A stretch of DNA of 64,000 nt from Neonectria sp. B-13. Taxonomy: Eukaryota > Ascomycota > Sordariomycetes > Hypocreales > Nectriaceae. The notes beneath the pieces were generated by a model, which did no database searches, was not told where the DNA came from, and was given only the letters and a program-made list of their open reading frames with translations. Positions 2,321 to 62,454 of this stretch are shown here, piece after piece (position 1 is the stretch's first letter; each line of letters opens with the position of its first letter). A program made the translations under genes and the position numbers. The stretch is from contig NOKP01000001.1 in the NCBI GenBank assembly GCA_002682825.1, forward strand, positions 5,397,296 to 5,461,295, in the 5' to 3' direction.

Positions 2321-5300
2321 ATGGCTACCATCAAACAGATCGATGGACACACAGTATGCTCCACCGTTACAACTTTATAAGACAGGCTACAGCTAACTGT
2401 ACCGTGCAGATCCATCAGATTCAGTCTGGCCAGGTCATTGTTGATCTATGCTCCGTGGTGAAGGAACTCATAGAGAATAGCATTGATGCGCAAGCAACCA
2501 GCATAGGTATGCACTCTCAGGCCATTCCCCCGCCATTTGGCTTTGGCCTAGTTCAATCCTTAAATTTCTTGTTGGTATATGCTAACCTGTCTTTGAATTA
2601 GATGTCCGTTTCAAAAACCAGGGCCTTGATCTAATCGAAATCCAGGACAATGGCACTGGCATATCCCCGAGCAACTACCCCTCCGTTGCTCTAAAGCATC
2701 ACACATCCAAGCTCTCGTCCTACTCGGACATTGCTTCCCTTCAGACCTTTGGCTTTCGTGGTGAAGCACTCGCCTCACTCTGTGCCTTATCTGTGCTCTC
2801 TGTCATTACTTGCCAGGCTTCGGATGTCCCCAAGGGTGCGAAGCTCGCCTTTGAGCCTTCTGGCGAGCTTAAGGGAACATCGATTGTGGCCGCTCAAAGG
2901 GGAACGACGGTATCTGTCGAGAAGTTGTTTCACAACTTACCTGTTCGTCGTCGGGAACTGGAACGAAACATCAAGAGGGAATGGCACAAGGTCATCGCCC
3001 TCCTCAACCAATATGCGTGTATTCAAACGAACCTCAAATTCAGCGTATCCCAACAGCCAACCAAGGGAAAGCGCATTCATCTCTTCTCAACAAGAGGTAA
3101 CCCTACCACTCGAGAAAACATTATCAACATATTTGGCGCCAAAACGATGACGGTCCTGGTGCCCCTGGATTTAAAGCTAGAGATGGAACCGTCTACTGTC
3201 GGCCGGGGTCCACAGATGGGTATCAGTACCGCTCCCGCTGTCGGGGATGTCCATGTCATAGGTCATGTATCACGGCCATCCCATGGCGACGGTCGACAGA
3301 TGCCGGACCGTCAAATGTTCTTCGTCAATGGAAGACCATGTGGCCTGCCGCAGTTTGCCAAGGTGTTCAACGAAGTATATCGGACTCACAACTCCTCTCA
3401 AAACCCCTTCATTTTGGCGAATATCCAGCTCGATACCGACATGTACGATGTCAATGTCAGCCCTGACAAGCGAAGCATTCTATTGCACGATCAAAATAAT
3501 CTCCTTGATACACTCCGCAATTCTTTAATGGCCTTGTTTGATTCACACGACCATTCGCTTCCCGCCGCTCAGCTTCTGAAACCCCGGCGGCCGGAAGCAA
3601 CATCACGCAAGGCTACGCCCACAACCCCCAAGACAACCACCCGCCCGGAAGCCTCGAATGACGACTCCGACTCCGACCAGGATTCACAGTCGAATAGCGA
3701 GGCCAGGGATGGCAAATCTCCCATTGGGAGAGTGCCTCCAGGGAGGGCGAGGACCGTGGGCAATTCAAGGTCTCTAACGAAAGATGATCGTGGTCAAAAC
3801 TTGATCAGTCGATGGGTCGAGAACAAGGCAGAAAGCCGGGTCACCAAAAAGCAAAAGTCCAAATCACCTGTCCCCAAGGCACCCACGGGTAGAACTCTGA
3901 GAACATCAACCCTACCTACGACGACGGTAACGAATGTTGATCACCCTACAAGGGGGTTGGAGCTATCAGAGAGCGACGAAGAAAACAATCCCAGGCCAGT
4001 TTTAGACTTCAACAAAAGATTGGCAGAATTCAGCAAAACGAGTGGCAGAGTGGCGAGGAAGACAGCCATTCCCTCGTCTCCCTCGTCTGATGATGAATCT
4101 CAAAGCCCTGTTGTCCGACCTTTTAGGCCTGGGCAGTTAGACAATGCTCCTGAAAACCAAGCACCGCCATCATCCCGCAAACCGAATGCGCCCGAAGCCA
4201 CCACTATAGTCATAGGTGATCATATTGTGAGCAGTGCAACGAACTCGTCGGAAGAGCCGAATAGTGAGGCTGAGTCCCAGAAAAAGGCTGTGTCTGGGAA
4301 GCGCAAGAGAAGAGGTGAACCACAAGCGTCATTTGGAAATCGCCTAACACAGTTGTTCTCGGCCGATCAAAAAGGGCAAGATGAGGACGGTAATTACGGG
4401 ACGCTTTCAAATGATGAAGATGATAAGGAGGAGCCTGGGGCGGGGACTGGCCAAGAGATCCGTGAGGCGTCTCATGGAGAGTCCGACAAAGAGTCCGACA
4501 GAGCACTTGGCTCGCCAAAGCATTCAAGGCTCACTGTTGACAACGGACAGGTCAAGAGTATGCCTGACACCACTGTCGACAATATGATTCGTGACGGCTC
4601 GTCAAGCTCCGTGCTTGATTCACGTGAAGACGGATCCGAAGACCACCTAGATCCGGGGGACGAAATCCAGACGGAGCATGCAAGCTCCGCTAGACTAAAC
4701 ACGACGGATCAGAAGGAACTTTTAAGAGCCAGGGCACAGAAAAAAGATGCCACATTCCAGATAGTGCAGCACCTTCGAGTCGATGAAGGCACTCTGCGAT
4801 CACGAATTGCAAGCTGGATCGAATGTATCCCCGAAAATGGCGCCCGCAAGTCAGACGAAAGTGGAGTGGCAGATCTCAGCGCTGACGATGCTGAAGAGAA
4901 GCTCTCGCTTGTCATCTCAAAGGGAGACTTTTCCAGGATGCGAATTGCGGGACAATTCAACCTCGGGTTCATAATTGCGGTTCGTCCGGCGAAGAATCAG
5001 CTTGGGGACGAACTGGAATCAGTCGATGACGACGAGTTGTTCATCATCGATCAACACGCCACCGATGAGAAGTACAACTTTGAGAGACTGCAAGCGACCA
5101 CGGTAGTGCAGTCTCAGCGGCTTGTTCACCCCAAACAGCTCGAGCTAACTGCTCTCGAAGAGGAAATTGTTATGGAGAATATCGAGGCCATAGAGGCTAA
5201 CGGGTTTAAAGTCAACGTTGACACGAGTGGTGACGAGCCAGTGGGCTCGAGGTGTCAGCTTCTGGCCTTGCCTCTCAGCCGTGAAACAACGTTCACTCTT

Positions 5301-5618
5301 GCTGATCTGGAGGAACTGGTCTCACTCCTTGGGGACGAGTCATCTGAATCCAAATATATTCCACGTCCATCTAAAGTAAGAAAGATGTTTGCCATGAGGG
5401 CATGTCGGAGCAGCATCATGATTGGAAAGTCTTTAAAGCAAGGACAGATGGAGACGTTGGTCAGGCACATGGGCGAGTTGGATAAGCCCTGGAACTGCCC
5501 TCACGGACGGCCTACAATGAGGCATTTGTGCAAGTTGCAGTCGTGGGACGAGAAGCGCTGGAAGGGTGACCAACAACAAGGCTCTGTTACAGCATGGCGC
5601 TCGTTTTCCCAGGGCTAG
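2321..5618 (+). CDS. pms1: DNA mismatch repair endonuclease Pms1 (MutL homologue)
   Basis: MutL-family ATPase/endonuclease that acts with Mlh1 in nuclear mismatch repair (family knowledge). Exons read as 2321-2353, 2410-2506 and 2602-5618, giving 1,048 residues. The GHKL ATPase motifs are in order: ELIENSIDA (residues 30-38), DNGTGI (59-64) and GFRGEAL (94-100). The first two exons are needed to supply the start and the ELIENSIDA motif. A long acidic, Ser-rich linker with no visible fold occupies roughly residues 330-800. The C-terminal dimerisation/endonuclease domain has GQFNLGFII, the metal-binding motif DQHATDEKYNFE (860-871), an ACRSSIMIG segment and CPHGRPTMRHL near the end. All key residues appear intact, so the gene should be functional. 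It is somewhat longer than yeast Pms1 because of the linker. Identity is secure; the first short exon is the least certain part. Confidence 0.95.
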
Positions 5619-24129: not shown

Positions 24130-26942
<2,813 letters not shown>

Positions 26943-27857: not shown

Positions 27858-29820
27858 ATGGCTGTCGGCCTCGCCAGCAGTGGCCACAGCACCCTTGACG
27901 AGGAGGCGCGAGCTGAGGTTGACGTGCTCAACTCGCGGCTTGAGAAGACGACTCAACTGACCAAGAAGATCCAGTCATGCCTTGGCAGACTTGATGCCAC
28001 TGGTAAAAGCGTCCATGATGTTACCGGCCCGTTAAATGGAGAAACGAGGCGCCTACAGACGCTTGGGAATAGTACGTTTCGTCCCATATGCCTCATGAGC
28101 ATCAGGCCAGCCTTGTTGACCAACGACAGACGTCGATGCTGTACTCGCCGCCATCGACCGCCTGCGCCAGCCCGCCGACAGCAAGAATGACGAAGAGCAG
28201 ATTATACGCGTCGGGCCGGACAAGGCCGGCCTTCCCAACTATTTGGCATCAATCAAGCGCCTGACCAAGTCCTTGACCGACATGCAGGCTTCCAACCTGC
28301 GCGCCAACCAGCAGACCATGGCAGACCTTGCCCGCCTCATCAAGTCAGGCAACACTCAGCTTGAGAACCACTTCGATAAATTGCTCCGCGCCGAGACCCC
28401 TCGCTCCATTGAGCCGCTACACTACATCACCAAGGACAAGCCGTTCCCCGTTTTTTCCCAGGACAAGATTGCCCGCCTGGGCCTGGTTTACTCCTATGTT
28501 GCCGGCAGCCAGCCACAGGGCGGACAGGAGTCGCCAGTTGCCAGGATTTATGCCGAAGTTCGTGGGCCGTATCTCTCCTCGTCCTTGGCCAACCTGGCCG
28601 CTGCAAGCGTCAACACTGCCAAGAAGAAGAATCCAGATGCAATCTATCGGGCTGGGACCAATGGCATTGGGACTTATGCGCAAGCCATGGAAGGCCTTTT
28701 TCTCTCCGAGTACGATAATGTTTGCAGCATATTTACGCGGGAGGACTGGGGCATTGTCTTCCAATCGACTTGCCAGGCCGCCCTGGCAGAGCTGGCGCGA
28801 ACTCTGCGCGAGCTCAATGCCCATATCAAGGCCCACCTCCATACCGACTGCTACCTGGCATACGAAGTGACTGAGATTTTGTCTGCCTTGTCAGGCAAAC
28901 TGGACACCCGGACCGGCGAGCTCAAGGGTTCGCTAGCCGCAGCGCTAAAACCGGTCCGTGAAACGGCAAAGTCCTCTTTGTCCGAGCTACTCGACGAGAC
29001 AAGACGGAAGATTGGGGTTTTGCAAGTTTTGCCTTCTGATGGCGCCCCGATAGCCGTTGTGTCGGAGTCGATGCAGAGGCTCCAGGCCATGGTGGAGTTT
29101 CTGCGACCCATCTCAAGCATCATGGTCTCACTCGGTGATGGGGGCTGGAAATCAAGCACGGCCTCCAACGGCCGTTCAACGGATGCCATTCCTAGCCTCG
29201 CATCATTCGACATTGGGGCAGATGGCCGAGACATATTTGCCCATTACTGCCTTGATACAATTGACGTGCTCCTAACGTCCCTGGACCAGAAAGCTCGAGT
29301 GCTCCTGAAGAGCAAGGCAGTTGCCGGTGTTTTCATGGCCAATACCGTTGTGATCATCGGACGGATGGTCTACGATTCCGACCTCGCGCCTCTCCTGAAA
29401 ACGAGGCTTGAAGTTCTTGATCAATGGCGCAAGAAGGCTACCGCAGCGTATACGGATATCTGTAAAGATCTCTCGGTATACCTTTTTGATACCATCCACA
29501 CGAGCCGGTCTCACCGCCCCACATCAGGCCCAGCCGACTCTGCGTCCGTTATCAAGGGGCTGGGCAGCAAAGATAAGGACAAGATCAAGGAAAAGTTTAC
29601 GCAGTTCAACAGTGCTTTTGACGACATGGTTTCGAGACATAAGTCGTACAGCATGGAGCGCGAAGTGCGCAAGATGTTCGGAGAAGACATCCGGCAGAAG
29701 CTGCAACCACTCTATGATAGGTTTTGGGATCGCTATCATGAGATTGATAAGGGCAAGGGCAAGTACGTCAAGTACGACAAGTCGTCCATTGCGGCTGTAT
29801 TCATGAGTCTCGCATCATGA
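27858..29820 (+). CDS. exo70: Exocyst complex subunit Exo70
   Basis: Exocyst subunit that binds plasma-membrane phosphoinositides and Rho GTPases to tether secretory vesicles (family knowledge). Exons 27858-28071 and 28130-29820 encode 634 residues, close to yeast Exo70 (623). The N-terminus has a long helix (EEARAEVDVLNSRLEKTTQL) that would form the exocyst CorEx coil. The rest is helical repeats; the C-terminus has the basic segments (KDKIKEKFTQFNSAFDD, REVRKMFGEDIRQKL) and the ending YDRFWDRYHE..SIAAVFMSL, which is characteristic of Exo70. The 58-nt intron keeps phase (LGN into NVDAVLAAID). Confidence 0.94.
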
Positions 29821-31582: not shown

Positions 31583-34500
31583 TCATCCTTCGGCCTTGAT
31601 CCCACTGCCAAATATGTCGTCGATCCGGCTCCTTCGCTCCCACACAACCGCTCCGTCACTCTTGCGTTTGAAGTAGAGGATCCGGTGCTGCGGGATGAAT
31701 TCCTCGTCCGTCTGCTCGCTCTTCCACAGCTCCACCGCCTTCTCCTGAGCCCCAGTGAACCTGTCCTCGTACCCAACAACGTAGTCGTTGCTGTCCAGGT
31801 TGCCGTCCCACCGGAGCCGGTTGAGCACGTCGGCTGCCATCCTGAACTTGCCCAGTCCTGCCGCCTTGGCCACAGTCACTGCTCTCGAGTTGTGCCCTGC
31901 TGCCTTCTTCCCTGGTTTCCCTTCGGCCCCACGAGCCGACACCTCCTCGTCAGCATCTTCGCCATCTGGATCCATGTCGTCTTCTGAGTCATCGTCCTCG
32001 CTGTCACCAGCGTCTTCCCCCCAACGACTGTCATCGAGCTCCAGGCCACCCACGTCATGGGCCCGGACCACCAATGCGCTCATCCAGCAACACTGGGCGT
32101 CAAAGTACTTCTCGTCGCAACGAATCCTCCTTTCAAACTCCTGCAGAACAGTCTGCAGCGATGTGTGTGTACTTTTGGCTTGGTGCTTGGTCGACTCGTC
32201 TCCATCCCACCCAAGGCCAACCAGATAACAGCCATGGTATTCTGTACCTATGCTGTCCATTGTCGTAGAAGATCCATCGACGAATCTCGCTGGCCAGATG
32301 CGTGCCAAAATACCCTTGAGTTTCCTATCAATGTCTTCATATCACGTCAGCATCGTCTAGCATTGCCAAGTCGGACAGAGGGTGCGCGCAGTCTTACCAA
32401 CAAGGAGCATAATGCATCGTGATTCCAACCAGCCGATAAATCGACTGCCCTTTTCCGGCGATGTACCCCAGTAGTGGGCATCGATTTTCACGTAGCTCCG
32501 ATACGCCAGCAGGAACTCGGCACCTGCCAAGCTGCCAGGCTGATACTGTTGGCTCTCGTTCTCGAGACCCGGTCCCAGAAGCCGGTCCCAGACCAAGCCG
32601 TCCGTTGATATAAGATGCCTGGCTCGGCTGAACTCGGCGGCTATTGTGTTCACTGTCGGGACAGAAGCATTCACAGCCGTGTTTAGTGATGGAGCATGCC
32701 AGCCAAGTAGACAGAGGGGTTCTCTGAAGGTCCGGTTGTATCTTGTTGCCTTGTGGAAGAACGGGTCAAACACTGCTTGATTTTTCCAATCGAAAGTGGC
32801 GTAGTGATGGAAGAAGGTCACTATTATATCAGAGGCAGTAACTGTTTCTCCGTTGTGCGCTAGCATCTTGCAGATAGACACAAGCATGACAGAGATATGG
32901 ATGCCCCCCAGAAAACCGAACTTGGCAGCATAGATACCTCGCGACTTAGCCCACGCCTTGATAAGGAGGTGAGCAACTCGATACTGTCCCATATCAGGAA
33001 TTGATTTGCGGAGATAGAAGAGGTCTCGTGCAGGCTTCAGCTTCGCTAGCACTTGTAGGGGCAGAGCGAACACAGGGTCAGTTGACGGGCGCTTCATGAT
33101 TTCTGGCCAACTGTAACAAATAAGCGCTGGATCTGAATCACCTTTCAATCCAGTGACTCACCTCTCTGCAATAGAAGTTGCTGGACAATATTGTAGATCT
33201 ACCTTGATCCCGCGTACCTCAAGCTCCAACATGAAGCCTGAGTTTGCTTTAACTCTTCGAAGGATCTTGATTCCTTCCGAAGCTGCCTTTCTGAGCCTCT
33301 GGAGAGCTAGAGCAAAGAAGGTCTTGGATCTGATGGGCCCAATACAGAGGCAATCAATGTCGGACGAACTCGTCCAAACGCCAAGACCATATGAGCCTAC
33401 CGGGACTAGGACCAAGACTAGACCTGATCGTGCATCGGCCTGTGCCCCAGGCCTGGCTGAATCTAGCAGAGTGTTCTCCAAGAGAAGGAGGGCATCTTTG
33501 CGCCCGGCTCTATCGACTTCGGTTGGCAAACAGCCATGGTTGCTCAGGCACTCCTTCAGATCATCGAGACTACCGAGACTGGGCGGCGCTCTTTGCAGGC
33601 GAACGCTCACTTCTGGCATGCTAGACCGCTTCGTGTCGTCCTGGGCTGATGAGCGTACGAGGAGGCACCGAACGCCCCAATGATCGCTGGCGTAGGATGA
33701 CCCTCCTCCCCCAGTCTGTTCTAATGGCGTCTGGCCAAACATGTTGAATCCATGTGGGCGATATTGGTCGTTTGCTCTAACGAGAATTCGATCATACCTC
33801 TGAGGGCGATTGTTTAGACCGGTACCAACAAGCTTGGCAGCCAACGAGTTGATGAAAGGATCGAATGTTGCACCCTGCTCACCTTCGTAGGCGTCTGCAG
33901 CGCTACGGTAATCGTTGGCCACGTCGGAAGACTCACCCGACTCAAGGCGAGTGACAAGCCATGTGTCCTGGAACCCTGCATGTGACAACAGCAGATCAAT
34001 ATCGTGTAGGTACTGGACAGTGTGGGAGGAGATGTCCTGCTTCTTCTTGGCAGCGTCCACGGTGTAAGACGACGTGGCCAGGTTGAAATCGCCTGCTAAG
34101 ACCCAGGGGTGGTGTGTATAGTGGGCGGACAGATGGTTGAGGATTCTCTGGACCTCCTTCTTCTTTGCAACAACGGCACCATCAGTGAGACCTTGGCTAA
34201 GATGGCAGGCAGCAAGGACCCAGGGTCGAAAGCATTCGTTGTCATCGCGGGTCCCGATGGTGGGAAACTGGACCACAGCACATCCTTTGTGCTTCCTCTT
34301 GAACGCTAGGTATTCCCATTGAATCGGAAACTTGCTTAGAACCACCACGTTAAGAAGGCTTGGAAGAGGGCCTATATTAGGCTGGTCTGGGGGTCCGTGA
34401 GTGACAAACGGATACCGAATGCGGATGTCCTCGTTGGCGAGCAGGAAGGGCAGAAAGTGATCGGTGACTTCCTGCAGCACCAGAACATCGGCGGCAGCAC

Positions 34501-35374
34501 GGCTGGAGAGCAAGTTTTCCACAAGACCCTCATGCCGGGTCGCCTGAGGGGGCCACTCGAACTCGGCCAGAACATTGTAGGACGCAACGATGAGGCGATC
34601 CACGACAAGCTGGGTATCAGCGGCGATAGAAGACGGTGATGTTGCCTGCCACATCGCGGACGGGTTCGAGCACTGAAATGACGGTTGCACGGCTGCATTC
34701 GGGGCGAGCAATCTTTCATCAAGCTTCGGTATGGTGTCGGATTCTTCATAGAGATGCTGAGCGGGCTCAGACCGAGTTATGAGCTGCGATGAAAGGTCCA
34801 GCATCGCCCATAGCATCATCGATCGGGGTCCTTCGCCGCTCGATGGAGCGGCATCGCGGGTGAGTAGGGCAATGTGGCCTAAATCCCACGCTATGGGACT
34901 GAGGAGGCGAACCTTCTCGAAGAGGAAGTGGTGAGGCGCCGTGAGAGCATCGTCACTCTGGCCGATGGTCATGTGCGGGCAATACTTGCTCCCAGCGGGC
35001 TGAGCAAGAGCGGCGCATATCTCGTTTCTCAGCTGCAAGAGCGCGGCAGTGTCGGGGCCATGGGCCGGACGGAGGAAGATGGTGTTGTGGTGCTTGCGGA
35101 TAAAGGCGTCAGCCGTGTCCAGGTTGATGCGGCGGTGATGATGCTGGCCTAGCGGGAGCTGGCTGAGGATGTCGGCAGCGTCCGAAAGGACCTCAGGCTG
35201 CACGAAGGGGTAGATGAGGTTGATGTGAGGAGGCCAAGCGCGGTACGCCTTGTCATAGAGACATCTCAAACGGTCTGCGGCGGGCCAGAGATGCCGCGGC
35301 GGAATTAGACAGAGGGCGGTCTCGTGAGACGTAAAGGCGAAGGGTGTTGTTCCGCTCTGGGAGGCTTGCTCCAT
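31583..35374 (-). CDS. 2H phosphoesterase - EEP nuclease - nucleotidyltransferase - MJ1316 fusion, predicted RNA-end repair enzyme
   Basis: Minus-strand exons 35374-33162, 33110-32398 and 32334-31583 encode 1,225 residues. Introns of 51 and 63 nt join S738 and D976 in frame. Four modules are visible. (1) A 2H/LigT-like phosphoesterase with PHINLIYPF (His50) and CPHMTIGQ (His134). (2) An endonuclease/exonuclease/phosphatase domain with YNVLAEFEWPPQ (about 266-277), LQEVTDHF (Glu302), LAGDFN (Asp429) and SDHWGVR (Asp563, His564). (3) A poly(A)-polymerase-type nucleotidyltransferase with GSYGLGVWTSSSDIDCL and its third acid in KVDLQY; the triad D672, D674, D726 is intact, followed by a helical PAP/OAS-like region. 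(4) A C-terminal MJ1316 (formerly DUF504) domain with IPQHRILYFKR and GAVVWERRSRIDDIFG, after a very acidic linker. Comparative work linked MJ1316 to recognition of cyclic-phosphate RNA ends; this order would suit trimming and re-tailing damaged RNA (inference). All catalytic residues appear present. Confidence 0.85.
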
Positions 35375-52500: not shown

Positions 52501-53594
52501 GACTGAATTATGCATTCTAGGTTATCTTTCTATATAGTATTAATTAATAACTACTTAATCCTTTGTACTAAAGCATTAATAGACTTTATTATATTATTAG
52601 ATACTATATGTATAATAATTATAGGTATCCCTAGGGTTATAATATTATAGTCCTTAGAGGCTTAAAAGGGTAGATTAGGTATTAGCTCTTTATCTCTAAG
52701 TTTATACTTCCTCAAAGGAAACTTATACTTAGAATAGTTTATAGTATATATATCTATTTTATATTAGATAAGAGATTTAATCTTATTATAAAGTCCTTTA
52801 TATAATATATTATAAATTGCTTTTAGGTCTATATTCTATAAGTTATATATTCCTTCCTGAATTATTATAGGTATTACATTAAAGAGGTTTCTAGAATAGA
52901 AATTAAACTCCTTCTAGCCTATTGGATTAATCTATTAGTAAAGGTAAAAATGATTGCTTAGCTAGTATAGGATCATAAGATAATCTAGTATAAGTTGTTC
53001 TTGATTATAGATATTAAGTTGCTAGTTAAAGGTCCTTGTTTAGCTATTATCCTAGAGTTTGAATATAGCTTTTAGGTTTATCTTAGCTACATTCTAGTCA
53101 TTTGAATTATTAACTTCCTATAAAACCATCCTCTTTACAGTCTTATTAAGATATAGTAAAAGATGATTATTATACCTCTCTAGCTGAATGGCATAATCAT
53201 CCATTGTACAATCAAATTCATATAAAAACACTATTATATTTCTCCTATTGAACTTTATATTAAAAGGCATACTTATAAGAAAATGATTTACTCTTTCTAT
53301 CTACTAGGTAGAAAGTCTTTGTATAATTTTACTAAGTATCTAAAGATTCTTAGTAGTATTAAAACTTTTAGTTCTATGGTTATAGGTAGTAGTCTTAGCT
53401 CTTATTATAGGACTCTAAGTAGTAGGATTAATTAAAGCTATTATATTAAGGGCTTTTATAGCTAATTCTTCTTTTATAAAGAGAGATAGAGTAGTGTTTA
53501 AGGGTAATAATAATAATAAGGGTATTATCTTAAATAAAGTCATAAGTTCTAAATCTAATAAAGGTATTTACTTATAGTTATAATCATTAAATAT

Positions 53595-54070
53595 GGTTCC
53601 GTGGCGTAGTGGTTACACGCTTGGAATCCCCCCGCGCAAGCGAGGGGTCGTTGGTTCGAACCCAGCCGGAATCAACCTTCCTACTAGTAGGAAGGAACCC
53701 CCCCCCTTGGGTCAATAGGGACCAGTCCAAGCAGTCATGTGACACCGTATCACGTGGCTGTAGAAAACCAACCGGCCTGGCAGTGGCGTGCCGTTACACC
53801 GGAATTGTTTACTCATTGTTGATTCGCTAATGAGTTTGAGTTGCCTGTCTGGGCCTAGCAATAGGACCAATTAGGGGCACGGGGTTTTCTCTCCTTGCAA
53901 AAAAAGGGGTTTCCTCGGTGTTTAGTCACCCCCTGGGAGATGTTAGAGAGGCGAACTAAGCCGGATTGGGACAGGATCGGGTTTGAAGGGCCTCCGGATA
54001 GTGGTTAGTGGTGGTTTGGAACCCCCTTGTATTAGGAGCACACATTATCTAGCAATTGACCTTGTTCAAA
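53595..54070 (+). mobile_element. tRNA-derived SINE (476 bp)
   Basis: A perfect 15-bp TSD ATAATCATTAAATAT flanks it (53580-53594 and 54071-54085). The first 80 bp are tRNA-like: acceptor halves GGTTCCG (53595-53601) and CGGAATC (53667-53673), an A box TGGCGTAGTGG (53602-53612) and a B box GGTTCGAACCC (53653-53663). The anticodon arm is replaced by an unrelated GC-rich hairpin-like stretch, so it is not a working tRNA. The remaining 396 bp is of unknown origin and ends ACCTTGTTCAAA, with no poly-A. Its composition is normal while the Gypsy host is heavily mutated, so it inserted after RIP of the host or is too short to trigger RIP. Confidence 0.88.
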
Positions 54071-59990: not shown

Positions 59991-60004
59991 ATATACTTTA
60001 TTAT

Positions 60005-61093
60005 TTAGATATAATAGTCCTTAGTAGTATATACCTAGAGAAAGGGCTAAAGGTTAAATAGTATAAAAGAAAATAGAAAAAACAATAGTATAATAGGCTT
60101 AATACCTAAGCCTCAGGCAATAATAACTTAAGGAGATAAAAGTTTCTACTATAAAGTTAAAGTGTAAGTTTTACTGCCTTAATTAGCTAGAAAAGCTAGA
60201 TCTTAGAAAAGCTAGATCTTAGAAAAGCTAGATCTTAGAAAAGCTGAATCTTAGAAAAGCTAGACCTTAGAAAAGCTAGATCTTAGAAAAGGCTAAAACC
60301 CCTTAGGATAAAAGCTTAGCCTTTATACTTTTTAGGCTCTTTGCATTCTATCTAACCTTCTATATAATATAAAGATTATATAATTAATTATATAAGATAA
60401 TTGCTTCCTTTTAAATCATATTATAGCCTAGTAAGCTCTTACTAAGCTATACCTATAGGCTTTTATATAACCTATATAGTCTATTTTAAGTAGATCTAAG
60501 CCTTATTTCTAAGCTATAAATTATAGTTTAAAAGTCTAATCTATAAGATATAAAAGAGATTAAAACTAATTAATACCCTAAGGCTAAAGAATTAGTCTAA
60601 TTAATAGTCTTTAGTTATTATATCCTACTATAAGATAGAATCTAGCCTAATAGAGTAATAGCTTAATAGATTGCAATAGAATAGATCTTTCTAGAGGGGC
60701 TAGCTTTAAAGCTAGAAAGGAATAATAATACTACTAATATAGAGAAGAGGTTTATTAATAGTCTAAAGTATAATGACTATATCTTATAGGTTATACAGCT
60801 AATAAGCAATATTATAACAATTAACCTACAATCGAAGGAGTAATGCATTAGAAAGCAAGAGAATCCTACTGATCGGCCATAAAGCATAGAGGGATTTAGT
60901 AGAGGGAGTTCTAGGAAGCCTAATAGTCGTTCCTAGCGTTAGCAGACTAATAGTAGTAGAAGGGGCAAAAGTCAATAATTAGGTTCAAAATCCAAAGATC
61001 TATCCCCTTATTAAGCTTAAGCAAAGGAAACATATAATTTAGTGCAATTATAGATAAGTAGAAATAGTAGTTCAAATAGTAATTTCAATAGTA
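60005..61093 (+). mobile_element. R element copy (1,089 bp)
   Basis: Begins TTAGATATAATAGTCC and ends AATTTCAATAGTA, flanked by a 12-bp perfect TSD ATACTTTATTAT (59993-60004, 61094-61105). It contains six or seven 16-bp AAGCTAGATCTTAGAA-type units at about 60187-60292. Confidence 0.85.
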
Positions 61094-61241
61094 ATACTTT
61101 ATTATATAATAGATAATAATAAGGATTATATTATATTCTTTACTATCTACTTAAGTACTATTTAGTAAGCTTATAATAAAATCCAAGCTAATTTCTTAGA
61201 ATAAATATATTAATAATAATAGTAATTATAATTACTTATAA

Positions 61242-62286
61242 TACTATTGAAACTACTGTTTGGAGTATTGTTTCTGCCTATCTGCAATTGCGCTGAATCA
61301 TGTGTTTCCTTTGCTTAAGCTTAACGGGGGGATAGATCTTTGGATTTTGAACCTAATTATTGACTTTTGCCCCCTCTAGCTTCCTAGAACTCCCTCTGCC
61401 AAATCCCTCTATGCTTTATGGCCAATGTTAGAGATGACCATAGGATTCCCTTGGTTTCTAATGTATTACTCCTTTAGCTATAGGTTAGTTAGAATAATAT
61501 TATCTATTAACTGTATAATCTATAGGGCAGAGATAGGGTTATATAGCTTCTTGAGGAACTCCTTCTCTATAGTAGTAATATTACTATTCCTTTCTAGCTT
61601 TAGAGCTAGCCTCTCTAGAAAGAGCTATTCTATTATAATCCACTAGGCTATTACTATATTAAGCTAGATTCTATCTTATAGTAGGATATTATAGCTAAAG
61701 ACTATTAATTAGATTAATTTTTTAGGTCTAAAGTAATTAATTATAGGCTATTTTATATACCTTAGGCTAGACTTTTAAGCTATAATTTGTAGTATAGAAA
61801 TAAGGCTTAGATATTCTTTTAATTCAATATATAGGTCATATGAGAGCCTATATATATAGCTTAGTAAGGGCTTACTGGGCTATAGTACGATTTGGATAGC
61901 AGTCATCTTGTGCGATCGGTAGTGTGGTTATTGTGTTATTTGGAAGGTCGGATGGAATGTGAAGAGCCTGGAAAGCGCAGAGGTTAGCTGGGCTTTTATC
62001 CTAAGGGGTTTTAGCCTTTTCTAAGGTCTAGCTTTTCTAAGATCTAGCTTTTCCAAGATCTAGCTTTTCCAAGATCTAGCTTTTCCAAGATCTAGCTTTT
62101 CCAGCTGATTGGGGCAGCAAAACTTATACCTTAACTTTATAGTAGAAACTTTTATCTCCTTGAGTCATTGTTGCCTTAGGCTTGGGTATTAAGCCTATTA
62201 TACTATTGTTTTTTCTGTTTTCTTTTATACTGTTTAACCTTTAGCCTCTTCTCTAGGTGTGTACTACTAAGGACTATTATATCTAA
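61242..62286 (-). mobile_element. R element copy (1,045 bp), the least mutated
   Basis: Begins TACTATTGAAACTACTG and ends TATTATATCTAA, with a perfect 14-bp TSD ATAATTACTTATAA (61228-61241, 62287-62300). It keeps many CpG and CpA sites lost in other copies, so it is a good guide to the original R sequence. The 16-bp array (about 62025-62105) has clear AAGATCTAGCTTTTCC units. Confidence 0.9.
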
Positions 62287-62454
62287 ATAATTACTTATAA
62301 GGTTTATACCTTAGTATATATATACTCTAGTATTATTAATACTTTTAAGTATAATCCTTTATATCCTTAGAAATCTAGTTCTAATAGAACTTATATATAA
62401 TAAGCTTTAAAGTCTTAGTAGCTTTTATATATTCTAAGTATAGATTATTATAGT

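Follow-up and report, generated by a model that had tools for sequence, protein, structure and literature searches.

The MJ1316 domain is described in PMC6514570, on the strength of two works cited there, one a comparative survey and the other a superfamily classification, as a reader of cyclic-phosphate RNA ends, and the passages of that article which treat the domain report it across eukaryotic lineages in diverse fusions to RNA-repair domains and, in addition, to C12orf65-like release factors. The same domain (PF04457) is found in the MJ1316/UPF0248 proteins of archaea and in animal LENG9, which according to a passage in PMC9635633 combines it with a CCCH zinc finger. Here we analyse a 64,000-nucleotide window of the genome of the fungus Neonectria sp. 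B-13 (contig NOKP01000001.1, hereafter C1, positions 5,397,296 to 5,461,295), in which a gene on the minus strand at 31583-35374 encodes four modules in one protein, i.e. a 2H phosphoesterase-like module, an EEP module, a poly(A) polymerase (PAP)-type nucleotidyltransferase and an MJ1316 domain. Like the eukaryotic fusions described in PMC6514570, as far as the description given there allows a comparison, it joins MJ1316 to partner domains. The RNA-repair survey of 2016 by Burroughs and Aravind reportedly shows eukaryotic MJ1316 fusions as well. We tentatively regard the protein as a conserved enzyme of filamentous ascomycetes that acts on damaged RNA 3' ends.

Gene structure and module order

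Joining positions 35374-33162, 33110-32398 and 32334-31583 of the minus strand gives a frame of 1,225 amino acids without an internal stop, which reproduces both the frame and the two introns (33161-33111 and 32397-32335) proposed in a first-pass annotation made from the letters of the window. A Pfam scan of the whole protein returned five rows above the curated cut-offs and two below. The five are 2_5_RNA_ligase2 (PF13563; residues 25-175, E 7.3e-27, 94.7 bits against a cut-off of 27), Exo_endo_phos (residues 264-534, E 2.4e-9), NTP_transf_2 (PF01909; residues 653-696, E 8e-5), PAP_central (residues 781-902, E 2.4e-11) and MJ1316 (PF04457; residues 1140-1209, E 4.9e-19, 69.2 bits against 26.3, profile positions 2-75 of 75), while PAP_NTPase (18.4 bits) and Exo_endo_phos2 (15.7 bits) both fall under their cut-off of 27. 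The 2H, EEP, PAP and MJ1316 modules follow one another in this order within one reading frame, in agreement with the annotation, and the 2H and MJ1316 matches on which that proposal depended are both significant. No ligase family is among the Pfam rows of the whole protein. The parts of the gene, in window coordinates and in the order of transcription, are:

33162..35374, minus strand: exon 1, residues 1-737 and two bases of codon 738; 2H, EEP and most of the PAP nucleotidyltransferase domain (open frame and Pfam)
34790..35329, minus strand: 2H phosphoesterase-like module, residues ~16-195, with H50-I-N52 and H134-M-T136 (PF13563 and PDB 2d4g profile match)
33650..34609, minus strand: EEP module with TDP2-like fold, residues ~256-575, with N267, E302, H391, D429, N431, D528, D564 and H565
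33162..33577, minus strand: PAP catalytic domain within exon 1, from residue ~600, with G660-S661, D672, D674 and D726 (PF01909 and 4lt6_A match)
33111..33161, minus strand: intron 1, 51 nt, GT-AG (GTGAGT...TACAG), in-frame stop at the donor
32398..33110, minus strand: exon 2, PAP central domain (PAP_central 781-902), then the start of the RNA-binding-like domain
32335..32397, minus strand: intron 2, 63 nt, GT-AG (GTAAGA...TGAAG), in-frame stop
31583..32334, minus strand: exon 3, remainder of the PAP RNA-binding-like domain, acidic linker, MJ1316 domain and stop
32036..32334, minus strand: exon 3 part of the PAP RNA-binding-like domain, to residue ~1075
31871..32035, minus strand: acidic linker, residues ~1076-1130, poorly conserved (mean pairwise identity 0.30 over 1066-1130)
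31634..31843, minus strand: MJ1316 domain, residues 1140-1209 (PF04457, E 4.9e-19), the best conserved module (mean pairwise identity 0.73 over 1136-1220)

Because each intron holds an in-frame stop, both must be spliced to give the 1,225-residue protein, and the unspliced open reading frames (ORFs) end inside the introns, at 33158 in intron 1 and at 32357 in intron 2. The Neonectria punicea protein (P0001) is also 1,225 residues long and aligns ungapped over both exon junctions. At the second junction eight of nine compared orthologue models run on across, the exception being that of N. ditissima (P0002), which is 21 residues longer with an insert placed as if intron 2 were retained, and which looks like a gene-calling error. 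At the intron-1 donor, 64 of the 106 newly listed matches to the N-terminal half (P0239-P0344) project to end exactly at residue 738; many of these come from metagenome gene calls without a name that break off at the donor, so the position of intron 1 is common to the relatives. A reading as two genes was rejected, since orthologue models cross both junctions and split halves can share one contig, as in Stylonectria, where the halves g4706 and g4707 (P0140, P0249) are called as two genes on the same contig, 67,189 in length. Homology and the conserved intron position support a single spliced gene across both introns.

A conserved family of ascomycetes

A search with the whole protein scored 7,995 candidates, of which 612 matched at E <= 0.001, and searches with the two halves gave 219 and 281 matches. 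The best 120 of each search were pooled into 344 distinct proteins, and their modules were scored with profiles built from an alignment of 63 orthologues picked from the best 120 of the 612. Every module was covered by half or more in 121 of the 344, and the module order was kept in all 134 proteins that possess all modules. Most of the remaining proteins are without one end or the other, as unspliced or incomplete gene calls would be. Among the matches listed, the closest is that of N. punicea (88% identity over 100%) and the named hosts are ascomycetes, mainly Sordariomycetes; further hosts include Cucurbitaria and Massariosphaeria (which we take to be Dothideomycetes), Aspergillus germanicus (presumably Eurotiomycetes), and Candelina and Peltula (presumably lichen lineages). 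Hundreds of fungal relatives already bear database names taken from the MJ1316 or the adenylyltransferase part. Orthologues such as those of N. punicea and Fusarium oxysporum (P0014), named 'polynucleotide adenylyltransferase' or 'MJ1316 RNA cyclic group end recognition', have the same modules in the same order and no essential difference from the protein encoded in the window, which is one more orthologue. Judged by these comparisons, the gene belongs to an existing conserved fungal family rather than representing a new kind, and other genomes share its architecture. The open-access literature searched yielded no experimental study of the four-module family, consistent with what the first-pass annotation had said of the full fusion, and no experiment on MJ1316.

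The catalytic and signature residues are retained almost throughout the alignment. H50, N267, E302, H391, D429, D528, D564, H565, G660 and S661 are invariant in all 63 orthologues, and H134, N431, D672, D674 and D726 are kept in 62; position 52 is Asn in 60 and Thr in three, and position 136 is Thr in 61, Ser in one and Phe in one. The catalytic residues listed in the annotation were correct for H50, H134, E302, D429, D672, D674 and D726, and off by one for 'D563, H564', the residues being S563, D564 and H565. The orthologues that depart from the conserved residues are P0030 at D674, P0077 (annotated as partial) at 134 and 136, P0072 at 136, and P0095, from Beauveria bassiana. In P0095, N431 of the EEP module and D672 and D726 of the PAP module are changed in an otherwise conserved protein, which may be an inactive copy or reflect an error in the sequence. 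Across the modules, mean pairwise identity falls from 0.73 (MJ1316) through 0.62 (PAP central), 0.54 (PAP catalytic), 0.53 (EEP) and 0.51 (PAP RNA-binding-like domain) to 0.47 (2H), which together with the conserved residues suggests constraint on all modules.

Modules and proposed work at RNA 3' ends

The domains of the protein point to work at RNA ends, as first proposed, and the catalytic residues of the modules are kept. From what is observed directly, i.e. one frame over three exons, four modules and conserved catalytic or signature residues, we infer the following steps. MJ1316 would bind the RNA end, probably one with a 2',3'-cyclic phosphate; the 2H module would open the ring and leave a monophosphate; the EEP module would remove the leftover phosphate or another end block to give a 3'-OH; and the PAP module would tail that hydroxyl, after which the RNA could be rescued, a separate T4-type RNA ligase gene being present in the cell, or be marked for decay. 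That the target is tRNA or rRNA cleaved by a ribotoxin or RNase is a guess.

For the first of the two enzymatic clearing steps, the 2H module shows the domain profile and both active-site histidines, and its best solved sequence relative is PDB 2d4g (profile match, E 8.2e-8). It shares PF13563 and 2d4g with the YjcG/LigT 2H phosphoesterases and differs from them in motif 1, which here reads HxN instead of HxT/S (HxN in 60 of 63 orthologues, HxT in three). Of the two His motifs claimed for the 2H fold, both histidines are present and the H-x-[ST] pattern fails in the first. For this reason we call the module 2H-like; it probably acts like a 2H.

The EEP module has the superfamily fold and the full catalytic N, E, D, N, D, H set. 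Its nearest fold is that of TDP2 (~21% identity in the fold alignment), which is also its weak best sequence match in profile comparison, and ANGEL2, PDE12, Nocturnin and CNOT6L all rank below TDP2 by fold, so that a reading as a CCR4/ANGEL2 relative was discarded. ANGEL2, which shares the EEP fold and is reported in a passage of PMC9525292 to hydrolyse cyclic phosphate, makes such chemistry plausible for this module; TDP2 is described in the part of PMC7077319 that deals with it as a 5' phosphodiesterase. The greater likeness to TDP2, one of fold and weakly of sequence, does not favour the 'trim' step of the annotation and makes phosphate removal by this module a tentative step. It would suit a protein that serves both RNA ends or RNA-protein adducts, its EEP module working at 5' ends or taking off a peptide or phosphotyrosyl adduct, a reading that we consider improbable.

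The third enzymatic module has the catalytic, central and RNA-binding domains, the GS motif and the three aspartates of a canonical-type PAP. It matches the profile of PAP-gamma (4lt6_A) with E 3.6e-30 over profile positions 600-1016, and the solved relatives found for the nucleotidyltransferase are canonical nuclear PAPs, not Trf4-type enzymes. With these (PAPOLG, PAPOLA, Pap1 and Pla1) it has the three-domain fold and the catalytic triad in common, whereas here the enzyme is fused to three other modules, and the residues of the base-binding region differ. Two asparagines of mammalian PAP, which we take to be ATP contacts, correspond to K763 and A800, and the base added by the module is uncertain. 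Since the module is of the canonical type, tailing fits better than the restoring of lost sequence implied by 're-add nucleotides', and given a full PAP and no fused ligase, tailing is the safest part of our proposal. A metabolism of 2',5' linkages, in which the 2H and a PDE12-like EEP module degrade 2'-5' bonds that the nucleotidyltransferase makes, is highly improbable, as the solved relatives of the transferase are poly(A) polymerases and PDE12 scores below TDP2.

A complete PAP fused without a ligase is also what would be expected if the MJ1316 and PAP core tailed cleaved RNA fragments for the exosome in TRAMP-like fashion, 2H and EEP merely clearing the end and no repair taking place. The best conserved modules are indeed MJ1316 and PAP central, and 17 of the 344 proteins have the PAP parts and MJ1316 without 2H or EEP over half its length, 13 of them without any EEP match. 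However, such short models may be incomplete, and the solved relatives are not of the Trf4 type; we hold this tag-for-decay role to be somewhat unlikely. Eight models of 618-650 residues (P0152, P0159, P0160, P0166, P0173, P0176, P0183 and P0187), from Hypoxylon, Candelina, Peltula, Sarea, Massariosphaeria and Delitschia, have PAP and MJ1316 and no 2H or EEP match; in these the N-terminal half may naturally have been lost or split off.

The assignment of MJ1316 as the cyclic-end reader repeats what the relevant passage of PMC6514570 states, and archaeal neighbourhoods lend it weak support at best. MJ1316 alone gave nothing significant against the sequences of solved structures. When genomes were sampled from the phyla to which three archaeal genomes belong, the domain was present in 21 of 28, 29 of 36 and 67 of 148, the matches listed being mostly open frames of ~80-130 residues. 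Loci comprised ~1.5 kb on each side of MJ1316. A first scan of 47 neighbours, chosen from 91 ORFs at 24 loci, gave mainly metallo-beta-lactamase-fold proteins (17), Na/H exchangers (8) and VIT1 (7), with one CLP1-type kinase (L153), so that most had no relation to RNA ends; a second, of 112 neighbours at 58 loci (L153, L175-L231), some of which gave one neighbour or none, yielded ArsR (20), CBS (14), TrkA_N (12), DHH/DHHA1 phosphoesterases (12) and CLP1-type proteins (9, with L153 recounted), all nine being at least 63% identical to the first. No 2H or nucleotidyltransferase family was seen near archaeal MJ1316 among 25 of the 28 and 25 of the 79 families of the two scans. A 953-residue frame around MJ1316 at L232 resembled a fusion and was set aside, as it seems to be an antisense open frame opposite other ORFs in GC-rich DNA.

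The remainder of the genome bears on what is left for the fusion to do. PAP_central has a stronger match on contig C32, the best of the genome (E 1.3e-61); a T4-type RNA ligase (RNA_lig_T4_1, E 5.7e-96) is encoded on C60 as a mirrored pair; and a Usb1-family (HVSL) gene lies on C40. Each of mRNA polyadenylation, U6 3'-end work and RNA ligation thus seems to be served by a gene of its own, and the fusion likely does something additional. The word 'repair' in the annotation would require a ligase, of which the fusion has none; RtcB gave no match in the genome in one six-frame search, the controls of which were prokaryotes only and positive in 9 of 14. An ordinary role in the 3'-end maturation of U6, other snRNA or further housekeeping RNA, unrelated to damage, would account for conservation in many named ascomycetes and for a 2H joined to a terminal transferase, a pairing that presumably resembles Usb1 and a tailing enzyme, but the separate Usb1-family gene makes it quite improbable.

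A bolder form of the proposal, which we think unlikely, is an RNA end reset within a single polypeptide: MJ1316 would capture a blocked end, its cyclic phosphate and one more block, perhaps an adduct that is 5' or of protein, would be cleared by the 2H and TDP2-like modules, and a second poly(A) polymerase of canonical type, dedicated to this task, would write a new tail. The literature searched gave no experimental account of such a filamentous-fungal route of RNA quality control. As MJ1316 is here fused to three nucleic-acid-end enzymes in tractable fungi, e.g. Trichoderma reesei (P0046), both the role of the domain and the fate of cleaved RNA in fungi, tailing or repair, could be tested by a single gene deletion together with a single purified protein.

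Assembly and surroundings

In the genome searches with PF04457 and with PF13563, the gene and its mirror copy were the sole matches. The 5-kb locus occurs twice on C1 at 100%, and a true second gene copy was set aside, the duplicate being part of a perfect inverted repeat (C1 5377296-5559154) whose arms, at 100% over at least 90,780 bp each, flank a 100-N gap (5468076-5468175) and which contains the window entirely (1-64000). The repeat looks like an assembly artefact in which one contig end was scaffolded against its own copy. Opposite-strand match pairs also occur on C60 (101940/193989) and on C114 (138540/1436997 and 594590/981244, with nearly the same axis), and mirrored contigs may inflate the 61-Mb assembly.

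The neighbouring genes, with matches to Exo70 (28120-29817, plus strand), an MCM3-like helicase (24234-26816, minus strand) and a MutL-type mismatch-repair protein (2793-5615, plus strand), are by these matches ordinary housekeeping surroundings. Beside the gene, at 38001-64000, GC content falls from ~47-59% to 20-31% and no ORF of 230 residues or more is present in that interval; diverged inverted repeats (77.9%) lie near 60,000-62,291, and the AT-rich block has possibly been affected by repeat-induced point mutation. Within it, at 53594-53677 on the plus strand, lies a tRNA-Gly (TCC).
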